Positions 17,364-27,351 of a stretch of 64,000 bases of DNA are shown in pieces. The stretch spans positions 1 to 64,000 of the forward strand of contig NZ_HE978515.1 in NCBI RefSeq assembly GCF_000311725.1, given 5' to 3'. The position numbers and the translations under genes were made by a program. The notes below the pieces were generated by a model. That model saw nothing but the letters and a program-made list of their open reading frames with translations. It was not told the origin of the DNA and made no database searches. The DNA is from Robertmurraya massiliosenegalensis JC6 (GTDB taxonomy: Bacteria > Bacillota > Bacilli > Bacillales > Cytobacillaceae). Within the stretch, counting starts at the first letter, position 1; each line of letters starts with the position of its first letter.

Positions 17364-18017
17364 TTATTTTTTATTTAGATAAAACCAAGAAATGAGAATT
17401 AAACTAATAAAAAACCATTGCTCCATGGTAAATAAAAATAGTCGAACACTTTGCGGTAATAAAGTAAGCTGTAAAATAACCATAATAAATAACCAAATGA
17501 TCATCACATTTACTAGTCCATTCAGAGATGGCTTACGTATAAGAATGAACAGTAATAGAATAAAAGTGATAACCCCAAGTGCTACATGATAGAGTGTTTC
17601 AGTACCAAGAAGTATAGCTGCAAGCGTTTGATACCCACCCACTACTACTAAACTATAATTGAGAACAATCTGGATCATTTGATGTTCCGACAAGCTCATT
17701 TTCTTTAACTTATAAAATACAAATAAGATTGTTATTATAACCGCAATTAATAATCCGTCTGATCCACCAGTAAAGTATAAAAGTGAAAGAGGACTTTTTA
17801 GGACCAGCTGTGGCTCAAGTATTAGTAAGCTGGCTTTCCAGGAGACAAATCCGATAAAAATACCGTTTGACAGGATATCAAAAATCTTCTTTTGAGAATC
17901 CTTTTCATGAGTAACTTTTAACCATACTTTTATAAAAACAAGCCCTGCTATAATTGCTATTCCAAGAATGACCCATTTTAGTAGAATTGATAAAGAACCT
18001 ATTTGAATAACTGCCAT
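17364..18017 (-). CDS. Polytopic membrane protein, function unknown
   Basis: 217 residues with about six or seven hydrophobic helices. The segment SNGIFIGFVSWKASLLILEP and the following YFTGGSDGLLIA are faintly like prolipoprotein diacylglyceryl transferase-family proteins, but the catalytic His and Arg motifs of Lgt are not evident. It precedes a TlpA thioredoxin and lies behind an ATACC/GGGTAT site at 18066-18085, so it probably belongs to the persulfide-controlled set and may help electron or thiol transfer across the membrane. Confidence 0.6.
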   Translation of the reverse strand: MAVIQIGSLSILLKWVILGIAIIAGLVFIKVWLKVTHEKDSQKKIFDILSNGIFIGFVSWKASLLILEPQLVLKSPLSLLYFTGGSDGLLIAVIITILFVFYKLKKMSLSEHQMIQIVLNYSLVVVGGYQTLAAILLGTETLYHVALGVITFILLLFILIRKPSLNGLVNVMIIWLFIMVILQLTLLPQSVRLFLFTMEQWFFISLILISWFYLNKK

Positions 18018-20036: not shown

Positions 20037-20115
20037 CATCCCAACTCCTCATAGTAATTGATTTATGAGTAGTATGAGCATCTTTAAAATCTATAGTAGA
20101 AAAATTTCCACAAAC

Positions 20116-20141
20116 AAAAAAGGAGGGTGTGCTCCTCCTTT
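20116..20141 (-). terminator. Terminator of the TauE-DsrE-DsrE-selenoprotein operon
   Basis: AAGGAGG/CCTCCTT hairpin followed by TTTTTTG on the minus strand, five bases after the TAA that closes the two-UGA ORF. Its position supports 20146-20295 as the true last gene of the operon. Confidence 0.8.
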
Positions 20142-20145
20142 CTCG

Positions 20146-20295
20146 TTAAAATATTTTTTGTAGCAATATAATGACTCCTACCAGGAGCCAGACAAGAACA
20201 CCAGGTCATATTGGCGGAATGCCCTTAACCTTTGAGTCCTTGTTTGTCTTAATTCCTCAAGTACCATTACCACAATTCTTGTTGGGCTTCTCCAT
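20146..20295 (-). CDS. Predicted small membrane selenoprotein with two in-frame UGA codons
   Basis: From ATG at 20295 (GGGGTG ribosome site seven bases upstream) to TAA at 20146 the frame encodes 49 residues with UGA at codons 13 (20257-20259) and 30 (20206-20208) and no other stop. Reading UGA as U gives MEKPNKNCGNGTUG, a charged middle, GIPPIUPG, then a hydrophobic helix VLVWLLVGVIILLQ. U13 is five residues after C8, as in a redox pair. A SECIS-like hairpin follows the second UGA. It is the last gene of an operon with two DsrE genes and TauE. I know no described family with this layout. The alternative is a pseudogene with two Cys-to-stop changes, less likely given the intact frame. Confidence 0.7.
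20172..20190 (-). promoter_or_regulatory. SECIS-like hairpin after the second UGA
   Basis: On the minus strand UGGCUCC pairs with GGAGUCA (six Watson-Crick pairs and one G-U) around the loop UGGUA, starting 15 bases after the UGA at 20206-20208. Bacterial SECIS elements place a G near the start of an apical loop about 16-37 bases after the UGA; here the loop begins 22 bases after. The G-U pair makes the fold stable only on the coding strand. Confidence 0.65.
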
Positions 20296-20331
20296 TGTTT
20301 CACCCCATTTCAATTTTGGTACAACTACACG

Positions 20332-20712
20332 TTAAAAATGAACAAAAAGGTCAGCTGACACCGCTTCATTAAGGATCCACTTTATCGGAACCTGTTCAAT
20401 CGAGTATAAAAAATTTGTATGATTTTGAATATCTAAATCAACAGCATACAATTTAACCCCCGAGTCTACTGCTATATCAAAGAGTTCGCGAATAGTTGGT
20501 GCGTTAAAATTCTTTAACGCTTTTGACAAATATTCAGTTCCATCAGAAACAACTGGAACAAACCCTTTATCAAGTAAATTAACACCTTTTCTTAAAAAAG
20601 CTAATGAAACATTAGCTCCTGAAGAAGCTGCGCCAACCGCAATATTCAATGGAGGATATGCCGATTCTAATTCATCATGTAAGACTAACACAACTACTTT
20701 TCGTTTTTTCAT
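20332..20712 (-). CDS. DsrE-fold protein without cysteine
   Basis: 126-residue DsrE/DsrF-like protein of the sulfur-relay fold (VVVLVLHDELESAYPPLNIA at the N-terminus, SADLFVHF at the C-terminus). Active relatives carry a conserved Cys in VKLIACQM; here the aligned segment is VKLYAVDLDI and the whole protein has no Cys. It therefore cannot carry persulfide itself and may be a structural partner of the Cys-containing DsrE encoded 13 bases upstream. The two-UGA small protein gene follows it directly. Confidence 0.8.
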   Translation of the reverse strand: MKKRKVVVLVLHDELESAYPPLNIAVGAASSGANVSLAFLRKGVNLLDKGFVPVVSDGTEYLSKALKNFNAPTIRELFDIAVDSGVKLYAVDLDIQNHTNFLYSIEQVPIKWILNEAVSADLFVHF

Positions 20713-20725
20713 TAGAAGTCCCCCT

Positions 20726-21067
20726 TCAATAGCTCAAAACGGCATCTGCTTCATATGCTTTTTCTAGAAAAGTTACAACACCAGCTAATTCGGCTCCATC
20801 TATAAGTTCAAGACCATCTGCAATTAATACATTCATTTGACAACCAAATAATTTTATTCCTTTATCAACTGCATTTTGTAAAAGAATATCTAGATCAACA
20901 TTATGATTCCTTTTTCTAACCTTTACATAATTCTTATCAAGAACTCTTGCACCATCAAGGTCAAAGAATACACTTACTTTATGCCCATTCTCGACCATGC
21001 GTAAAGCTTCTTTTAAAACAAAGGGTACATTTGAACGTAATGATACAAAGAAAACAAAATTTCTCAT
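20726..21067 (-). CDS. DsrE-fold sulfur-relay protein
   Basis: DsrE/DsrF-like protein of about 113 residues. The start at 21067 follows AAGGAAGGG; an in-frame ATG at 21094 lies too close to the tauE end. The conserved sulfur-carrying Cys is present in IKLFGCQMNV (about residue 74). Its stop is TGA, but relatives end at the same point, so this UGA is a normal stop. Likely partner of the Cys-less DsrE downstream, in the manner of heteromeric TusBCD/DsrEFH rings. Confidence 0.85.
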   Translation of the reverse strand: MRNFVFFVSLRSNVPFVLKEALRMVENGHKVSVFFDLDGARVLDKNYVKVRKRNHNVDLDILLQNAVDKGIKLFGCQMNVLIADGLELIDGAELAGVVTFLEKAYEADAVLSY

Positions 21068-21109
21068 AAAGATTACCCTTCCTTCTTTAAGCATATCGGT
21101 CTCTTTATT

Positions 21110-21886
21110 TTATAGAATATCCATCCAAATCTTCACTGCAGTTGCAGCGATTAAAATTGCAAGGATAATCTGTAAAACCTTTGTGTTCATCTTCTTCCCT
21201 GCATTTGCACCTAGTGGTGAAGCAATTAAGCTTGCTACAATCATAATAATGGCTGGAACATATTCAATTTGGCCTGTTGTTATTTTTCCTACAGTAGAAC
21301 CAATGGATGAAATAAATGTAATTGCAAGTGAAGATGCGATTGTCATTCTGGTAGGAATTTTTAAGACAACGAGCATGATCGGTACAAGTAAAAATGCGCC
21401 GGCTGCTCCAACAATCCCAGCACCTAAACCTACAATAAAGGCAAGTACAGCAGCTAACCACTTATTAAAAGTAACTTGGTCAAATGGAACATCATCTACA
21501 TTTTTTTTCGGAATGAACATCATAACAGCAGCAATTAACGCTAACACACCATAGACTACGTTAATTCCACCCTCTGACATAAATTTGGATCCAAATCCAC
21601 CAACAAAACTACCTACTAAAATACTAATCCCCATATAGAGAATCAGTGTTTTATTTAAATACCCACCTTTACGATATGCCCAGACACCACCAATAGTTGC
21701 AAAAAATACTTGAACAGCACTGATTCCTGATACCTCATGAGCACTGAAAGCTGCTAAACCAAATAATGGTGGAATATATAATAGCATTGGATATTTAATG
21801 ATAGATCCACCGATTCCTAACATTCCTGAGATATATGAACCAATAAAACCAATTAGAAAAATTGTAATGATAAATGTAAAATCCAT
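21110..21886 (-). CDS. TauE/SafE-family sulfite/organosulfonate exporter, copy 1
   Basis: 258-residue membrane protein with about eight helices and the duplicated TauE/SafE pattern ([17 protein letters not shown] near 25-45, [18 protein letters not shown] near 158). Members export sulfite or sulfoacetate, and here probably remove sulfite formed by persulfide dioxygenase. It is almost the same protein as the copy at 26572-27351, differing mainly by conservative changes, so the two arose by a fairly recent duplication. First gene of the operon ending in the two-UGA ORF. Confidence 0.92.
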
Positions 21887-21905
21887 TTATGTTTACCTCC
21901 TCTTG

Positions 21906-21939
21906 AGAAAAGGGAACCATATACGGTTCCCTTTTTTTG
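21906..21939. terminator. Bidirectional hairpin between tusA and tauE
   Basis: GGGAACC-ATATA-CGGTTCCC with T-runs in both directions, between the TusA stop and the TauE start. It separates or attenuates expression of the downstream TauE-DsrE operon. Confidence 0.8.
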
Positions 21940-21944
21940 GTTGT

Positions 21945-22172
21945 TTACGCCTTTTTAATCCAGAACTTTAATACTTCATTATCTTCTTCGTGCTTTATTA
22001 GTTCATGACCACCAGACTTAGCCCAAGCTGTTAGGTCATTTATAGCACCTTTGTCAGTTGCATGAATTTCAAGGACTTGGCCTGATTCGATTTCATTCAT
22101 TGCTTTTTTTGTTTTTACGATCGGCATTGGACATGCGAGTCCTTTTGCATCTAATACCTTTGCTATATTCAT
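21945..22172 (-). CDS. tusA: TusA-family sulfur carrier
   Basis: 75-residue sulfur carrier with the CPMP motif (KGLACPMPIVKTKK); the Cys accepts persulfide sulfur. ATG at 22172 is chosen over 22193 because AGGAGG lies eight bases upstream. One of five TusA-domain genes in the window. It follows the rhodanese-dioxygenase fusion by 33 bp, the same order as at 32382-33755, so it probably hands sulfur to or from that enzyme. Confidence 0.93.
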   Translation of the reverse strand: MNIAKVLDAKGLACPMPIVKTKKAMNEIESGQVLEIHATDKGAINDLTAWAKSGGHELIKHEEDNEVLKFWIKKA

Positions 22173-22205
22173 AAGAATAACTCCTCCTATCAATTAAGTT
22201 CGTAA

Positions 22206-23333
22206 TTAGCGTACCGCACAACGGTTTGGTCCGATTTCCATTTCACGTTGTTTTTCTTCATCAGGAGAAATATTCCCCATGTTTGTTTCACGGATTTCTT
22301 GATATGCATTTGGTTGTGGTGGTAGGTTTTCTGTTACGATTCTTCTAAATTCTGCTTCGTCCTTAATATTTAGACCATGGTTCTTCGCAAATAGTGTTCC
22401 TAGTTTTTCGGATACACTTCCATCTTCATTTAATTCGTCAATAATCATGAAGTGAGCAGGTAAAACCACTAGGTCATCAGACAATTCTTTATAACGGTTA
22501 TAAAGAGTTTCTCTTAGATCTCCTACCCAATCCTGTGCTAAACCAGCAAGGTCCGGTCTACCGATTGAATCAATAAACAGAATATCACCCGAAAGTAAGA
22601 ATTTTTCATCAACAACAAAAGAAGTAGAGCCAATTGTGTGACCAGGAGAATACAGTGCATGAATAGTAATTGTTGTATTTCCAATTGTCACATCTTGACC
22701 GCCTTCTAAAGCTGCGTATTCAAACGTAACTTCTGTTGCATCTTTAGGTGGTAACCAGTAAGTTGCATTTGTGGCTTCAGCTATTTTTCTTCCTCCTGAA
22801 ATATGGTCAGCATGTAAGTGAGTATCAAATACATGTTTAACTTGCGCACCCTTGCTATCAGCAAAATCAAGGAAGATATCCGTCATACGAGTTGCATCGA
22901 TAATCGCTGCTTCACCGTTTGATACCACCATGTAAGATAGACAGCCTTTTCCGATACGAACGAATTGATAGACTTCTCCACCATCTTTTAAATCGCCCAC
23001 TTTAACTGGCTCTAAGTGCTCACTCCAAGCCTTCATACCACCTTTAAGGTAGGATACAGTTAGCCCAGCTTCAGAAAGCATATCAGCTACCATTATAGAT
23101 GAACCTTCCTTGGCACAAACTACTAAGATATCCTTATCTTTTGGCAATTTTTCAAGGATTTCTTCAACCCCGTCTAGTAATTCAAAGTAAGGAATGTTTA
23201 AATAGTCGAAGTTTTCACCTTCAATTTTCCAATCGTTAAAATCACTTTCGTTACGAACATCTAAGATAAAAAACGGTTCTCTATCAAACACTTTTCTCGT
23301 AACATCTTTTGCAGTCATTACATTAACAGTCAT
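22206..23333 (-). CDS. Rhodanese-persulfide dioxygenase fusion, copy 1
   Basis: 375 residues: an N-terminal rhodanese domain with catalytic C73 (VVCAKEGSS) and a metallo-beta-lactamase domain with THLHADH (H172, H174, D176, H177), PGHTIGS and LPAHF metal motifs, as in ETHE1-type persulfide dioxygenases. It ends in GPNRCAVR, as does copy 2. The domain order is the reverse of staphylococcal CstB. The likely reaction is oxidation of glutathione- or bacillithiol-type persulfide to sulfite, with the rhodanese moving sulfane sulfur. Preceded by glutaredoxin and followed by TusA. Confidence 0.9.
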
Positions 23334-23392: not shown

Positions 23393-23626
23393 TTAATTTT
23401 TTAGTGCTGTCATGATACTATTCGGATCATAGCCTAGGACCCATTTTCCATTTACTTCAGTTTGGGGTACACCCATTTGACCAGTTTTATTTACAACATA
23501 CTGCATCATTTCCGGTTTTGATTCAACATTAATTTCAGTAAAAGGAATATTTTGATCTGCTAAAAAATTTTTCAACATTACACAATAAGGACAACGAGTT
23601 GTCGTGTACACTGTAATATTATTCAT
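23393..23626 (-). CDS. Glutaredoxin-like protein
   Basis: 77 residues with the dithiol CPYC motif (C12, C15), cis-Pro GVPQTEVNGKW and a YDP C-terminal segment, the NrdH/glutaredoxin pattern. Start 23626 follows AAGGAG; the in-frame ATG at 23653 overlaps the upstream gene. In the cluster it probably reduces mixed disulfides or persulfides on TusA/rhodanese proteins. It follows TusA-rhodanese with slight overlap of leader sequence. Confidence 0.88.
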   Translation of the reverse strand: MNNITVYTTTRCPYCVMLKNFLADQNIPFTEINVESKPEMMQYVVNKTGQMGVPQTEVNGKWVLGYDPNSIMTALKN

Positions 23627-23645
23627 GAGTTCATTACTCCTTATC

Positions 23646-24224
23646 TCATTCATTTGTTAAACTAGTAGTTTTTCCAGCCCACTTGCTCATTCCAGGTACC
23701 ACATTAATTACGTTTTTGAAACCTTTTTCTGTAAGCTTTTGTGATGCTAAATCACTTCGACTACCTGTGCGGCAAACAACATAGACTTCTTTTTCTTCAT
23801 TTAGCTCATTCACTCTTTCCTCTAATTCTCCTAATGGGATAGAAACTGCCCCCGGAATATGATTAAATGCATATTCGGCAGCTTCACGAACATCGAGGAC
23901 AAGAATATCTTTACCAGAAGAAATAGCATTTTCTAAATCATCGTTCGTTACTACATGGGGATGTTTTTTCTCTGTAACTTCCTCACCGCTTGCTTTACGA
24001 ATGTAATGTTTAAGTACATCGCCTTCTTCTATTGTGCCAAGATATTGATGCCCAGTACTTGCAGCCCACGCTTTGAGATCTGCCTTTGACCCTTTATCAG
24101 TTGCTTGCACCTCTATAACTTGCCCGCCTTCTAAATTATTGATCGCTTTCTTAGTTTTCACAATTGGCATTGGACATGCCAATCCTTTTGCATCTAATAC
24201 AAGATTCGTTTTTAATGACTCCAT
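23646..24224 (-). CDS. TusA-rhodanese fusion, copy 1
   Basis: 192 residues: TusA domain (C17 in ACPMP, about 1-78), a charged linker, and a rhodanese domain with C151 in VVCRTGSRSD. Sulfur can pass between two cysteines of one chain. GGAGG precedes the ATG at 24224. Heads the operon fusion-glutaredoxin-dioxygenase-TusA, behind an ATACC-N6-GGTAT site. Near-identical arrangement to 34172-34741. Confidence 0.92.
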   Translation of the reverse strand: MESLKTNLVLDAKGLACPMPIVKTKKAINNLEGGQVIEVQATDKGSKADLKAWAASTGHQYLGTIEEGDVLKHYIRKASGEEVTEKKHPHVVTNDDLENAISSGKDILVLDVREAAEYAFNHIPGAVSIPLGELEERVNELNEEKEVYVVCRTGSRSDLASQKLTEKGFKNVINVVPGMSKWAGKTTSLTNE

Positions 24225-24375: not shown

Positions 24376-24672
24376 TTATTCAACTTTACCTTCCCAAGCG
24401 AGCATACCGCCCTCCATGTTGATCACTTTGAATCCTTGTCCTTCAAGGAATTGAGAAGCTCTTCCACTTCTACCACCTGAACGGCAAACCATAACATATT
24501 CTTTTGACTTATCAAGTTCGTTCATACGGAATTCTATTAGTCCTAATGGAATATTAACCGCTCCAGGTATTCTTCCAGCTGCAACCTCATCAACTTCACG
24601 AACATCGATAATATTTAAGGTTGTTCCTTCACTTAGTAAAGTTTCAACTTCTTTTGCTGTTAGTTGTTTCAT
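24376..24672 (-). CDS. Single-domain rhodanese sulfurtransferase
   Basis: 98 residues with catalytic C63 in VMVCRSGGRSG, DVREVDEV and PGAVNIPLG motifs. Cytoplasmic. Follows the membrane rhodanese by about 46 bp. A well-formed GGAGG precedes its ATG. Confidence 0.92.
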   Translation of the reverse strand: MKQLTAKEVETLLSEGTTLNIIDVREVDEVAAGRIPGAVNIPLGLIEFRMNELDKSKEYVMVCRSGGRSGRASQFLEGQGFKVINMEGGMLAWEGKVE

Positions 24673-24718
24673 TATGATTTCCTCCTATTAAATTTGATAA
24701 TATTAACTATAAATATCC

Positions 24719-25078
24719 TTATCTCCAGGAGCTTACGCCACCTTTAACATTTGTTATATGCTTAAAACCCAATTTTTTTAATTGTTTGCTAGCTTTTTGA
24801 CTTCTCATACCACTTTGACAAATCACAACTACTTCTTTATCTTTTGAAAGTTCATTCGTTTTTTGAGCAAGCTGATGAAGGGGCATATTTTTAAATCCTT
24901 TAATATGATAGCCTTTGAACTCACCAGGAGTACGAACATCAATAAATTGTTTGTTTTTGTCCTTTAATTCATTCTTCAATTCAGCCGTGGTAATATTTCT
25001 TACTCCAGTTGTAGGAATAAGACGTTGTACGATAAAAATTACAATTAGTGCAAAAACGATATAATTGATGTATTCCAT
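24719..25078 (-). CDS. Membrane-anchored rhodanese
   Basis: About 119 residues: one N-terminal helix (about 4-20) and a rhodanese domain with catalytic Cys in VVICQSGMRSQ (about residue 87). CAGGAGG seven bases before the ATG at 25078 sets the start. Active counterpart of the Cys-less protein at 15455-15814. It follows DsrE by about 30 bp in the TusA-DsrE-rhodanese operon. Confidence 0.9.
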   Translation of the reverse strand: MEYINYIVFALIVIFIVQRLIPTTGVRNITTAELKNELKDKNKQFIDVRTPGEFKGYHIKGFKNMPLHQLAQKTNELSKDKEVVVICQSGMRSQKASKQLKKLGFKHITNVKGGVSSWR

Positions 25079-25108
25079 GTTCATTCCTCCTGTTTGCAAC
25101 AAAGTATT

Positions 25109-25588
25109 TTAGATAAACAGGTTTACATTTCCATCTTCAGCATCTGCCAAATAAGCTGCCACTCCTGCTAATTCAACATCATCTAAAAGTTCTTCTTGTT
25201 TAAGTCCAAGTAAATCCATTGTCATTGTACATGCGACAAGCTTGATATCTTGCTCTTGCGCCATTTCAATAAGCTGTGGTAATGGTAACGCATTGTGTTT
25301 TTTAATAACATCTTTAATCATTTTTGGCCCCATACCCGCCATATTCATTTTTGAAAGCCCTAGTTTATTTGCACCTCTAGGCATCATTTTGCCAAACATT
25401 TTTTCAATAAAGCTTTTTTCAGCTTTAATTTCTTCATCCTTACGTAGTGCATTTAATCCCCAAAATGTATGGAAAATTGTCACTTCATGATCATAGGCTG
25501 CTGCTCCATTCGCTATAATATAAGCTGCCATTACCTTGTCATAATCACCGCTAAATAATACGATAGTTGTTTTTTTTCTTTCAGTCAT
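25109..25588 (-). CDS. DsrE/DsrF-like sulfur-relay protein
   Basis: About 159 residues with the long DsrE form common in Firmicutes: IVLFSGDYDKVMAAYIIANG at the start, an inserted methionine-rich loop (MFGKMMPRGANKLG) and the conserved Cys in IKLVACTMTMDLLG. Start 25588 follows GGGGAGG. Between TusA (6 codon-sized gap) and the membrane rhodanese. It probably takes sulfur from TusA. Confidence 0.9.
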   Translation of the reverse strand: MTERKKTTIVLFSGDYDKVMAAYIIANGAAAYDHEVTIFHTFWGLNALRKDEEIKAEKSFIEKMFGKMMPRGANKLGLSKMNMAGMGPKMIKDVIKKHNALPLPQLIEMAQEQDIKLVACTMTMDLLGLKQEELLDDVELAGVAAYLADAEDGNVNLFI

Positions 25589-25617
25589 TTTGTTTCCTCC
25601 CCGTTTCCTCAAAAAAA

Positions 25618-25845
25618 TTAGCCTTTTTTAATATAAAAATATAGAACACCATTTTCTTCTTTTGTTTCAACTAGTTCATGTCCTGTTGATGCTGTCCATG
25701 CTGTTAAATCGCTTTTCGCACCTTTGTCAGTTGCAAGAACCTCTAAGATCTGCCCTGACTCAAGACCATCAATTGCTTTTTTTGTTTTTACAATCGGCAT
25801 TGGGCAAGCTAACCCTTTTGCATCTAATACTTTATCTATATTCAT
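25618..25845 (-). CDS. tusA: TusA-family sulfur carrier
   Basis: 75 residues with the ACPMPIVKTKK carrier motif. First gene of the operon TusA-DsrE-membrane rhodanese-rhodanese. The 240-bp leader carries two CstR-type operators and an FNR-type box, so this carrier probably sits under the most elaborate promoter of the cluster. Confidence 0.93.
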   Translation of the reverse strand: MNIDKVLDAKGLACPMPIVKTKKAIDGLESGQILEVLATDKGAKSDLTAWTASTGHELVETKEENGVLYFYIKKG

Positions 25846-25878
25846 GTAGATTACCTCCGTTTTTTTATTTTTACCTTT

Positions 25879-25894
25879 ACCCCTATGGGTATAA
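25879..25894. promoter_or_regulatory. CstR-type operator, promoter-proximal
   Basis: TACCCCTATGGGTATA, an ATACC-like inverted repeat with C/G tracts, 34 bp upstream of the TusA start at 25845. Confidence 0.6.
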
Positions 25895-25964
25895 TGTTAA
25901 CTAAAATAAAAATGGGTGTCAACCCTATTATTTACTTAATTATTATTCAAACTTTATATGATGC

Positions 25965-25980
25965 TGTGATAAAAATCACA
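25965..25980. promoter_or_regulatory. FNR/CRP-type box
   Basis: TGTGATAAAAATCACA fits the TGTGA-N6-TCACA palindrome of Bacillus Fnr. It lies between two CstR-type operators upstream of TusA. The same arrangement recurs at 34827, implying oxygen control added to persulfide control. Confidence 0.65.
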
Positions 25981-25991
25981 TTACCTATGTT

Positions 25992-26009
25992 ATACCCTAA
26001 TGGGTATAT
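25992..26009. promoter_or_regulatory. CstR-type operator, promoter-distal
   Basis: ATACCCTAATGGGTATAT, almost identical to the perfect palindrome at 15867 and followed by the same TTGTCAA sequence. Confidence 0.7.
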
Positions 26010-26021
26010 TGTCAACATATA

Positions 26022-26062
26022 AAATAAAAAAGTTGGATGCATTTTTCACATACACCCAACTA
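26022..26062 (-). terminator. Terminator after the DUF302 gene
   Basis: AGTTGGGTG...CATCCAACT hairpin followed by TTTTTTATTTT on the minus strand, just past the stop at 26069. Confidence 0.7.
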
Positions 26063-26068
26063 TAGCTA

Positions 26069-26455
26069 TTACACGCTTTTCTCAATACATCTTATTAGTC
26101 TTTCTTCAATATCCTTAGCAAGAGTCTGTATCTTTTCATCATTCATCATGGTAATGAGTGATGTCGGTCTTGGCATTCCAATACTTGTCTTTTCATTATC
26201 AGTATAGACCACTATCTTACATGGTAGGAAATAACCTGCAATTAAGTTTTCACTCATTACTCTATACGCTTCATGGGGATTACATACTTCAAGAACTTTA
26301 AACTCTCTTTGAAAATCAAGACCTTTTGATTGCAATTTTTCCTTCAAATCGAAATTCCACAACACACCAAATTGTTCCTCTTTTAAGTTGTCCTCTAGGC
26401 TTTTTATAGCCTCTTCTATATTCTTATTCGTTGTAACCGTATAATCAAACATCAT
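26069..26455 (-). CDS. DUF302 family protein
   Basis: 128-residue DUF302 protein, recognised by FDYTVTTNKNIEEAIKSL, FQREFKVLEVCNPHEAYRV and FLPCKIVVYTD. The role is unknown; family members often sit beside sulfur-oxidation and heavy-metal genes. It contains Cys in EVCNP and LPCK. It is separated from the upstream TauE copy by a short stretch that encodes the tail of another, lost gene. Confidence 0.85.
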   Translation of the reverse strand: MMFDYTVTTNKNIEEAIKSLEDNLKEEQFGVLWNFDLKEKLQSKGLDFQREFKVLEVCNPHEAYRVMSENLIAGYFLPCKIVVYTDNEKTSIGMPRPTSLITMMNDEKIQTLAKDIEERLIRCIEKSV

Positions 26456-26465
26456 GATTCCCCTT

Positions 26466-26566
26466 TACCCATTATTTTACGTCAGTTAAAACTGCATAGA
26501 CTGCTTCATGAAAAATCTTAACAGTAGGTTGAAATCCATTGCTATGTAAAAAATTCTCCGATTCTT
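26466..26566 (-). pseudogene. C-terminal remnant of an unrecognised gene
   Basis: Between the TauE stop and DUF302 an open frame without start reads ESENFLHSNGFQPTVKIFHE followed by AVYAVLTDVK and stops at 26466. It looks like a genuine protein end rather than random sequence, with TauE copy 2 joined on top of it. This may be the scar of the deletion that formed this part of the second gene set. I do not recognise the family. Confidence 0.4.
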
Positions 26567-26571
26567 TATTT

Positions 26572-27351
26572 TTAAAACAATATATCTACCCAAATCTTAA
26601 TAGATGTTGCAAGGATTAATACTGCTAATATCCACTGTAGAATTTTCGTATTTACTTTTTTACCAATATTTGCTCCTATTGGTGAAGCAATTAAACTTGC
26701 GACAACCATGATTAGAGCTGGGAAATACTCTACCTGACCGGTTGTTAATTTTCCAATGGTTGCTCCAATAGAAGATATAAATGTTATTGCCAATGACGAA
26801 GCAATCGTCATACGAGTTGGTATTTTTAAGACCACAAGCATGATAGGTACTAAAATAAATGCACCCGCTGCTCCTACAATTCCAGCCCCAACTCCTACAA
26901 TTAGTGCTAGAATGGCAGCCAACCATTTATTAAAGGTTACTTGCTCTAGTGGAATGTCATCTATTCCTTTTTTGGGGATAAACATCATTGCAGCTGCAAT
27001 GACTGCCAGTATCCCGTAAACAAGATTAATTGCTCCCTCACTCAAAAGTTTAGAGCCATATCCCCCTATAAAGCTTCCTATTAATATGGCTACACCCATA
27101 TATATAATAAGTGTCTTGTTTAAGTAGCCACCTTTTCGATATGCCCATACACCCCCAATCGTTGCAAAAAACACCTGAACCGCGCTAATTCCTGAAACCT
27201 CGTGAGCACTAAATGCAGCTAGTCCAAATAACGGTGGTATGTATAGTAGCATAGGGTATTTAATAATCGATCCACCAATTCCAACCATACCAGAAATAAA
27301 TGAACCAATGAATCCTATTAAGAAAATTACGATTATAAATAAGAAATCCAT
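26572..27351 (-). CDS. TauE/SafE-family sulfite/organosulfonate exporter, copy 2
   Basis: 259 residues, same helices and motifs as copy 1 at 21110-21886 ([35 protein letters not shown]). Most differences are conservative (Ile/Val, Phe/Tyr), pointing to recent duplication followed by drift at synonymous sites. Probably exports sulfite. It follows the MFS gene after a terminator. Confidence 0.92.

Follow-up and report, generated by a model that had tools for sequence, protein, structure and literature searches.

A predicted family of small two-selenocysteine membrane proteins with one recognisable SECIS-like hairpin, from Robertmurraya massiliosenegalensis and its relatives

Whether a bacterial UGA codon can be read as selenocysteine (Sec) without a standard SECIS element downstream is the question raised by one small gene of Robertmurraya massiliosenegalensis JC6. 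The gene lies in the window, the whole stretch of 64,000 nucleotides that was analysed (contig NZ_HE978515.1, positions 1 to 64,000), and an initial annotation made from the letters of this stretch had predicted that it encodes a small membrane protein with two Sec residues. The frame is as claimed there, with 49 codons broken only by UGA at codons 13 and 30, and translates on the minus strand (20146-20295) as MEKPNKNCGNGTUGIKTNKDSKVKGIPPIUPGVLVWLLVGVIILLQKIF*. The ribosome site, the terminator behind the frame and the C-terminal membrane helix that had been proposed with it were also found, and the parts of the gene are as follows.

20301..20306, minus strand: ribosome-binding site GGGGTG, 6-11 bases upstream of the ATG
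20146..20295, minus strand: coding sequence for the small protein with two UGAs, 49 codons and TAA (sequence reading and homologues)
20272..20274, minus strand: Cys8, which opens the motif C-x(4-5)-U; 97 of 99 distinct proteins have Cys here
20257..20259, minus strand: UGA1, codon 13, predicted Sec (translation and conservation; Cys in G965)
20206..20208, minus strand: UGA2, codon 30, a predicted Sec where the membrane helix starts (translation and conservation; Cys in G500 and G965)
20172..20190, minus strand: SECIS-like hairpin of UGA2, with a loop beginning 23 nt past the UGA
20152..20205, minus strand: membrane helix, codons 31-48 (hydropathy and AlphaFold2)
20114..20146, minus strand: intrinsic terminator-like hairpin beginning at the stop codon (z -4.74)

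A purine-rich match of at least 4 bases precedes 102 of the 103 intact relatives, as judged with a loose pattern and no control. AlphaFold2 placed a helix at residues 31-48 with a block pLDDT of 90-91, the mean pLDDT of the protein being 66 and values being low outside the helix. The N-terminal tail is basic (net +4 across residues 1-31), and the family members that were read are 45-64 amino acids long.

Relatives of the gene were detected in 77 of 193 genomes of the host family (78 matched, one false match removed) and in 52 of 397 genomes sampled from the host order (56 matched, four false matches removed), and in another order of the phylum both UGAs are kept in three of the eight genomes searched (G917, G995, G996; genomes carry our own labels). 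Counted by hand, the family labels under which both UGAs are kept number 19 within the order and one beyond it. The gene is carried, among others, on plasmids of Cytobacillus oceanisediminis, C. firmus and Mesobacillus foraminis, and it also occurs on contigs from Lederbergia citri and three Bacillus sp. Nucleotide searches (blastn) matched four plasmids and no phage, whereas tblastn of the translation against plasmids and phages returned nothing at E 1, which indicates that tblastn is insensitive for so short a protein. Standard gene callers had been said to miss the gene; in agreement with this, the gene table of three plasmid records, incomplete by its own account, has no gene over the match, and the check extends to those three.

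Frames in the 81 rows of the family search were read for 76 and for three of the other five genomes, with G073 and G075 unread. The order search gave 58 rows, of which 39 and then 11 were read, the other eight (two in G000 and six in a single genus) being places already read in the family set. On frame reading, G130 and G057:C83 from the family search and G332, G491, G527 and G568 from the order search were rejected as non-members, and the weak phylum matches in G652, G672, G686, G816, G836 and G998 (the last from the other order) stand outside the member counts. The comparative set comprises 110 places, namely 73 of 76 family copies, 36 of 40 order copies and that of M. foraminis; removal of six broken or partial copies and of G194 (no start found, third UGA) leaves 103 intact copies. 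G965, G995, G996 and 11 order copies read later are outside the intact, hairpin and neighbourhood counts.

Broken copies comprise the host's own paralogue and those in G059, G191, G495, G974 and G179, together with the second copy in G452, which has an in-frame TAG. G059 and G191, which hold broken copies alone, and G179, which holds a degenerate remnant, are still among the 77, and G495, with a broken copy, is still among the 52. The host paralogue (G000:C1:822356-822511) keeps both UGAs and carries a further in-frame TAA; its neighbours are a CsoR-like regulator on one side and, on the other, a 285-aa gene labelled TlpA-like, and it has intact relatives elsewhere. At one locus (L065, G051:C132:9264-9654) two copies of the small gene adjoin each other, one of them partial and with a hairpin mismatch. 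A different small open reading frame in G057 (L097 5001-5135), with a Cys pair, a similar helix and a weak score, is probably unrelated.

Both UGAs behave as sense codons in this set. All 103 intact copies have TGA at codon 13, and 102 have it at codon 30, the exception being TGT (Cys); the final stops of the same 103 copies vary among TAA (68), TGA (18) and TAG (17). Substitutions flanking both UGAs are of coding type on either side. Pro follows UGA2 in 99 of 99 distinct proteins and Gly follows UGA1 in 88 of 99, all four codons being used in each case, and the Cys before UGA1 is encoded by TGT in 60 proteins and TGC in 37. Translation past UGA2 in another frame was considered, since many copies have an AUG that overlaps UGA2, and was rejected on the codon-position divergence, which fits the annotated frame. 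As a side observation, the Ile before UGA2 (20209-20211 in the window) is ATA in 83 of the 84 distinct proteins with Ile there and ATT in G965, a third-base constraint that lies outside the hairpin.

Two genomes under one family label have Cys at these columns. In G500 the UGA2 column is Cys (PPICPG) and UGA1 is still UGA; in G965 both columns are Cys, the frame runs without a stop, and the gene stands behind two rhodanese genes. Alignment of UGA with Cys, by which selenoproteins are recognised, is therefore seen at UGA2 in G500 and G965 and at UGA1 in G965, and UGA-containing relatives, likewise looked for in selenoproteins, occur in other Sec-using organisms. Since G965 has selB, loss of selB does not explain its Cys form. 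The two-Sec prediction is thus upheld by relatives that keep UGA at both columns, with Cys at the second or at both in these two genomes.

A SECIS-like hairpin after the second UGA had also been predicted, and comparison bears this out. In the window copy a hairpin of -10.4 kcal/mol follows UGA2, which is modest when taken alone (z -1.54; 17 of 200 shuffles were as good). A scan with our own version of the bSECIS model outlined in PMC13188914, limited to unbroken stems, found a model hairpin at -7.5 kcal/mol or better in 85.1% of 101 distinct sequences versus 1.8% of shuffles, and at -4 kcal/mol or better in 96% versus 10%. Consensus folding of 95 sequences gave -9.73 kcal/mol, whereas alignments with shuffled columns gave -0.30 (sd 0.82); pairs are exchanged in it, CG being replaced by GC in three. 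Divergence at codon positions 1, 2 and 3 is 0.042, 0.171 and 0.082 in the hairpin versus 0.187, 0.369 and 0.719 just before it; the hairpin codon that varies among Val, Ala and Gly ends in A in 99 of 99, and Leu is CTG in 99 of 99. The compared sequences show that the bases of this predicted hairpin are under constraint at the RNA level. The element resembles the bSECIS model as described in PMC13188914 in that its loop lies 23 nt after the UGA, G is present in the first two loop bases, and the window copy has an 8-pair stem, with energies of -9.6 to -10.4 kcal/mol. In the Cys forms the energy of the model hairpin falls to as little as -0.2 kcal/mol in G965 and is still -6.7 kcal/mol in G500.

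At UGA1 the picture is different, and the weak point conceded from the outset, that the first UGA has no clear hairpin, still stands: no common SECIS was found. In the window copy nothing downstream of UGA1 beats shuffles (z 0.17). Over 106 sequences a UGA1 hairpin occurs in 9.4% versus 8.8% of shuffles at -4 kcal/mol and in 6.6% versus 1.7% at -7.5 kcal/mol, the stronger threshold being reached by seven sequences (G319, G057, G043, G917, G020, G021, G018). A consensus structure was found in none of eight length groups; this grouping mixes clades, so a clade-specific UGA1 element could be missed by it. Unlike UGA2, UGA1 in most members thus has no element of the kind modelled in PMC13188914. 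The two UGAs are 42-66 nt apart, which puts the loop of the UGA2 hairpin 65-89 nt from UGA1 (42-66 plus 23), outside the spacing of 16-37 given for that model. The assignment of Sec at UGA1 is made because the codon is conserved and is Cys in G965, the bSECIS model being matched behind UGA1 in only the seven sequences named. One SECIS could conceivably serve two UGAs, the UGA2 hairpin driving Sec insertion at UGA1 as well, or UGA1 could use another signal, for example the GGA/GGC-AT that is frequent right after it; we put these possibilities forward with reserve.

The host appears equipped to decode such codons. Its selB scores 359.9 bits in a profile search (cut-off 242.25), and its tRNA-Sec scores 56.7 bits with an RNA model (cut-off 47) and has the anticodon TCA (UCA), ARAGORN also calling a tRNA-SeC, so the check on host Sec machinery that had been suggested came out positive for selB and tRNA-Sec. 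The RNA model is not fully specific, as it also passes in 5 of 14 control genomes, selB passing in 2 of the 14. Among the open reading frames listed within 18-19 kb around selB and tRNA-Sec, neither selA nor selD was recognised. With shared ancestry uncorrected, the gene is found in 75 of 170 selB genomes versus 2 of 23 without a selB match in the family, and in 49 of 179 versus 3 of 218 in the order, where 130 of 179 selB genomes are without it. The five genomes that have the gene and no selB match are G172, G176, G389, G452 and G523, of which G172 and G176 also have no tRNA-Sec over the cut-off and G389 is a draft of 480 contigs. The other four share one closely similar gene type, also present on Cytobacillus plasmids, and we infer that in them the gene is a recent, idle arrival. 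The initial annotation would have given up its prediction if the host had no Sec machinery, or if homologues lacked the frame or had neither Cys nor UGA at both columns; selB and tRNA-Sec are present, and the homologues have the frame with Cys or UGA at both columns.

Several other explanations of the frame have to be weighed against this evidence. It is conceivable that UGA2 alone encodes Sec, with UGA1 acting as a regulatory stop or being read through as Trp at a low level, so that the full protein would be rare or the site a switch. Some read-through of UGA by tRNA-Trp does occur in Bacillus subtilis, and the lack of a common hairpin behind UGA1 would fit. However, UGA1 is kept in every intact copy and is replaced in G965 by Cys, not Trp; the Cys before it and the Gly after it are conserved; the seven sequences named above do have a model hairpin behind it; and an in-frame start codon lies between the UGAs in only 21 of 103 copies, all of which makes this explanation unlikely. 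The conserved piece might instead be an RNA element without a protein (a terminator, attenuator or small RNA with the hairpin as its core), in view of its highly conserved hairpin, which has a terminator-like score. Such an element would hardly account for the divergence by codon position ahead of the hairpin or for the free third base of the Pro codon, and the Cys/Cys relative G965 keeps the protein and its rhodanese neighbours and not the model hairpin, so that we regard this explanation as very improbable. A decayed gene carrying two stop codons is less credible still: broken copies do exist, but 103 copies, that of the window included, are intact save at the same two columns across about 20 family labels. 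The frame is of coding character before and after each UGA, both UGAs persist among the relatives, Cys replaces each of them in one relative or more, the UGA2 hairpin is conserved and the host has SelB and tRNA-Sec. On these grounds the frame is very probably a real gene for a small two-selenocysteine protein, as far as comparative sequence data can establish this.

No family with this layout had been known to the initial annotation, and the comparisons agree. Scans of 34 members against NCBIfam and Pfam gave no convincing match (best NCBIfam E 0.13, to a lipoprotein model), and none of the 119 families or subfamilies in Table 1 of a 2026 review (PMC13188914) fits; the families of Haft and Tolstoy (2025) were compared through that table. 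Among the literature matches listed (titles and starts of abstracts; for example, the best 30 of 748 and 10 of 2,361), no earlier report of the family was found. Bacterial proteins with two Sec residues catalogued in the review are TsoB (NF045694, UxxxxU), MbdU (NF045648) and a selenobacteriocin (TIGR04081). The present protein is like them in having two Sec in one bacterial protein, and TsoB, which is rhodanese/DsbD-like according to the review, is likewise concerned with sulfur/thiol chemistry. It differs from all three in its 45-64 residues, its single membrane helix, its C-x(4-5)-U ... PPIUPG arrangement and the lack of a convincing NCBIfam match. The kind of protein is known, but the family is new and its layout unusual, two UGAs being accompanied by one recognisable SECIS.

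In the window the small gene was said to end an operon of TauE and two DsrE genes. Its final position and these neighbours are as described, and the run on the same strand is longer than claimed, reading TusA-like, DsrE, two rhodanese-like, TusA-rhodanese, glutaredoxin-like, rhodanese-metallo-beta-lactamase, TusA, TauE, DsrE and DsrE, with the small gene last. Likeness to annotated homologues, and not a profile, gave the names of the first TusA, of both rhodanese-like genes and of the glutaredoxin-like gene.

20332..20712, minus strand: DsrE-like protein, 126 aa, without any cysteine (translation and profile)
20726..21094, minus strand: DsrE-like protein, 122 aa, with GCQMN (translation and profile)
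21110..21886, minus strand: TauE/SafE exporter, YrkJ-like (profile)
21887..21944, minus strand: TusA-TauE gap with a terminator-like hairpin, -18.2 kcal/mol (folding)
21945..22193, minus strand: TusA, YrkI-like (profile)
22206..23333, minus strand: rhodanese and metallo-beta-lactamase fold, persulfide-dioxygenase-like (PDO-like) (profile)
23393..23653, minus strand: glutaredoxin-like protein (name from an annotated plasmid homologue, by likeness)
23646..24224, minus strand: TusA-rhodanese fusion (profile)
24376..25102, minus strand: two single-domain rhodanese-like genes (names from annotated homologues)
25109..25612, minus strand: DsrE, DrsE_2 family (profile)

The remark that one DsrE has lost its own cysteine fits the 126-aa neighbour, which has none, the 122-aa one having GCQMN. 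Since a terminator-like hairpin lies between TusA and TauE, the last four genes (TauE, DsrE, DsrE and the small gene) may be expressed partly on their own. Upstream (25618-27351) stand genes for a TusA-like protein, a DUF302 protein and another TauE-like protein, DUF302 alone being profile-checked, which suggests that the sulfur cluster is partly duplicated. Downstream (17364-18017) is a 217-aa membrane protein without a Pfam match, relatives of which adjoin CcdA and TlpA genes at several loci of the small gene. No Rfam family matched anywhere in the window at gathering scores.

The small gene thus stands in the window within a sulfane-sulfur gene cluster of the yrk/cst type. In Bacillus licheniformis a yrkD-yrkEFHIJ-ydfQ cluster is described as oxidising sulfide and sulfane sulfur (PMC9918477), and the likeness extends to a CstR-like repressor, DsrE, rhodanese, PDO-like, TusA and TauE genes and to a hairpin between TusA and TauE, reported there and also present here. 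After TauE the B. licheniformis list has ydfQ, a thioredoxin homologue, whereas here the two-Sec protein ends the run in much the same place; the string 'selen' does not occur in the main text of PMC9918477.

The surroundings of the gene, about 5 kb on each side, were compared at 94 loci, after 16 of the 110 that were too short, among them the window's own copy, had been dropped. Neighbour labels are best blastp matches to window or plasmid proteins, with a few cluster members named by eye, and the counts are given without a random-locus control. At least one sulfur-type gene was present at 73 of 94 loci and two or more kinds at 52, with none labelled at 21. PDO-like genes were found at 45 loci, DsrE at 40, TusA-rhodanese at 38, TusA at 37, TauE at 32 and a CstR/CsoR-like regulator at 20, and TauE stands upstream, directly or with DsrE genes between, at 21. 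Other neighbours are TlpA-like genes (27), the 217-aa membrane protein (12), CcdA (8) and reductase-like genes named by eye (11); directly behind the small gene is a TlpA-like or 217-aa-like gene at 15 loci and a reductase-like gene at 10.

These surroundings allow a function to be sketched. The basic N-terminal tail with its C-x(4-5)-U motif would lie in the cytosol, and the second Sec, in PPIUPG, would be placed where the single helix enters the membrane, the helix keeping the protein near TauE and the DsrE, TusA and rhodanese persulfide carriers. The Cys-Sec pair could then be loaded with sulfane sulfur or electrons by carriers in the cytosol, and these could be handed on at the membrane by the second Sec, either to reduce per- or polysulfides or for the use of partners in the membrane. 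A membrane-tethered thiol/selenol relay in persulfide detoxification is accordingly offered as a tentative outline. A selenoprotein for extracytoplasmic thiol redox, working with CcdA and TlpA, or for a flavin disulfide reductase, would make the sulfur operons only one setting of the gene, and the TlpA-like, 217-aa, CcdA and reductase-like neighbours, including those directly behind it, speak for this. Yet sulfur carriers are commoner in the same neighbourhoods, and TauE, directly or across DsrE genes, precedes the small gene at 21 of the 94 loci, so that such a role seems less likely. Taken together, the evidence points with considerable confidence to a two-Sec small membrane protein, for which a membrane-tethered thiol/selenol redox relay is the likeliest, still tentative, role.

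A protein of this kind would add a two-Sec selenoprotein family, which spans Bacillus relatives under about 20 family labels as well as one other order, and would tie selenium to sulfide and persulfide detoxification in these bacteria. If a single SECIS does serve both UGAs, or UGA1 is decoded through another signal, the family would represent a new mode of Sec decoding in bacteria, and the protein so decoded would be one that acts on sulfane sulfur at the membrane.
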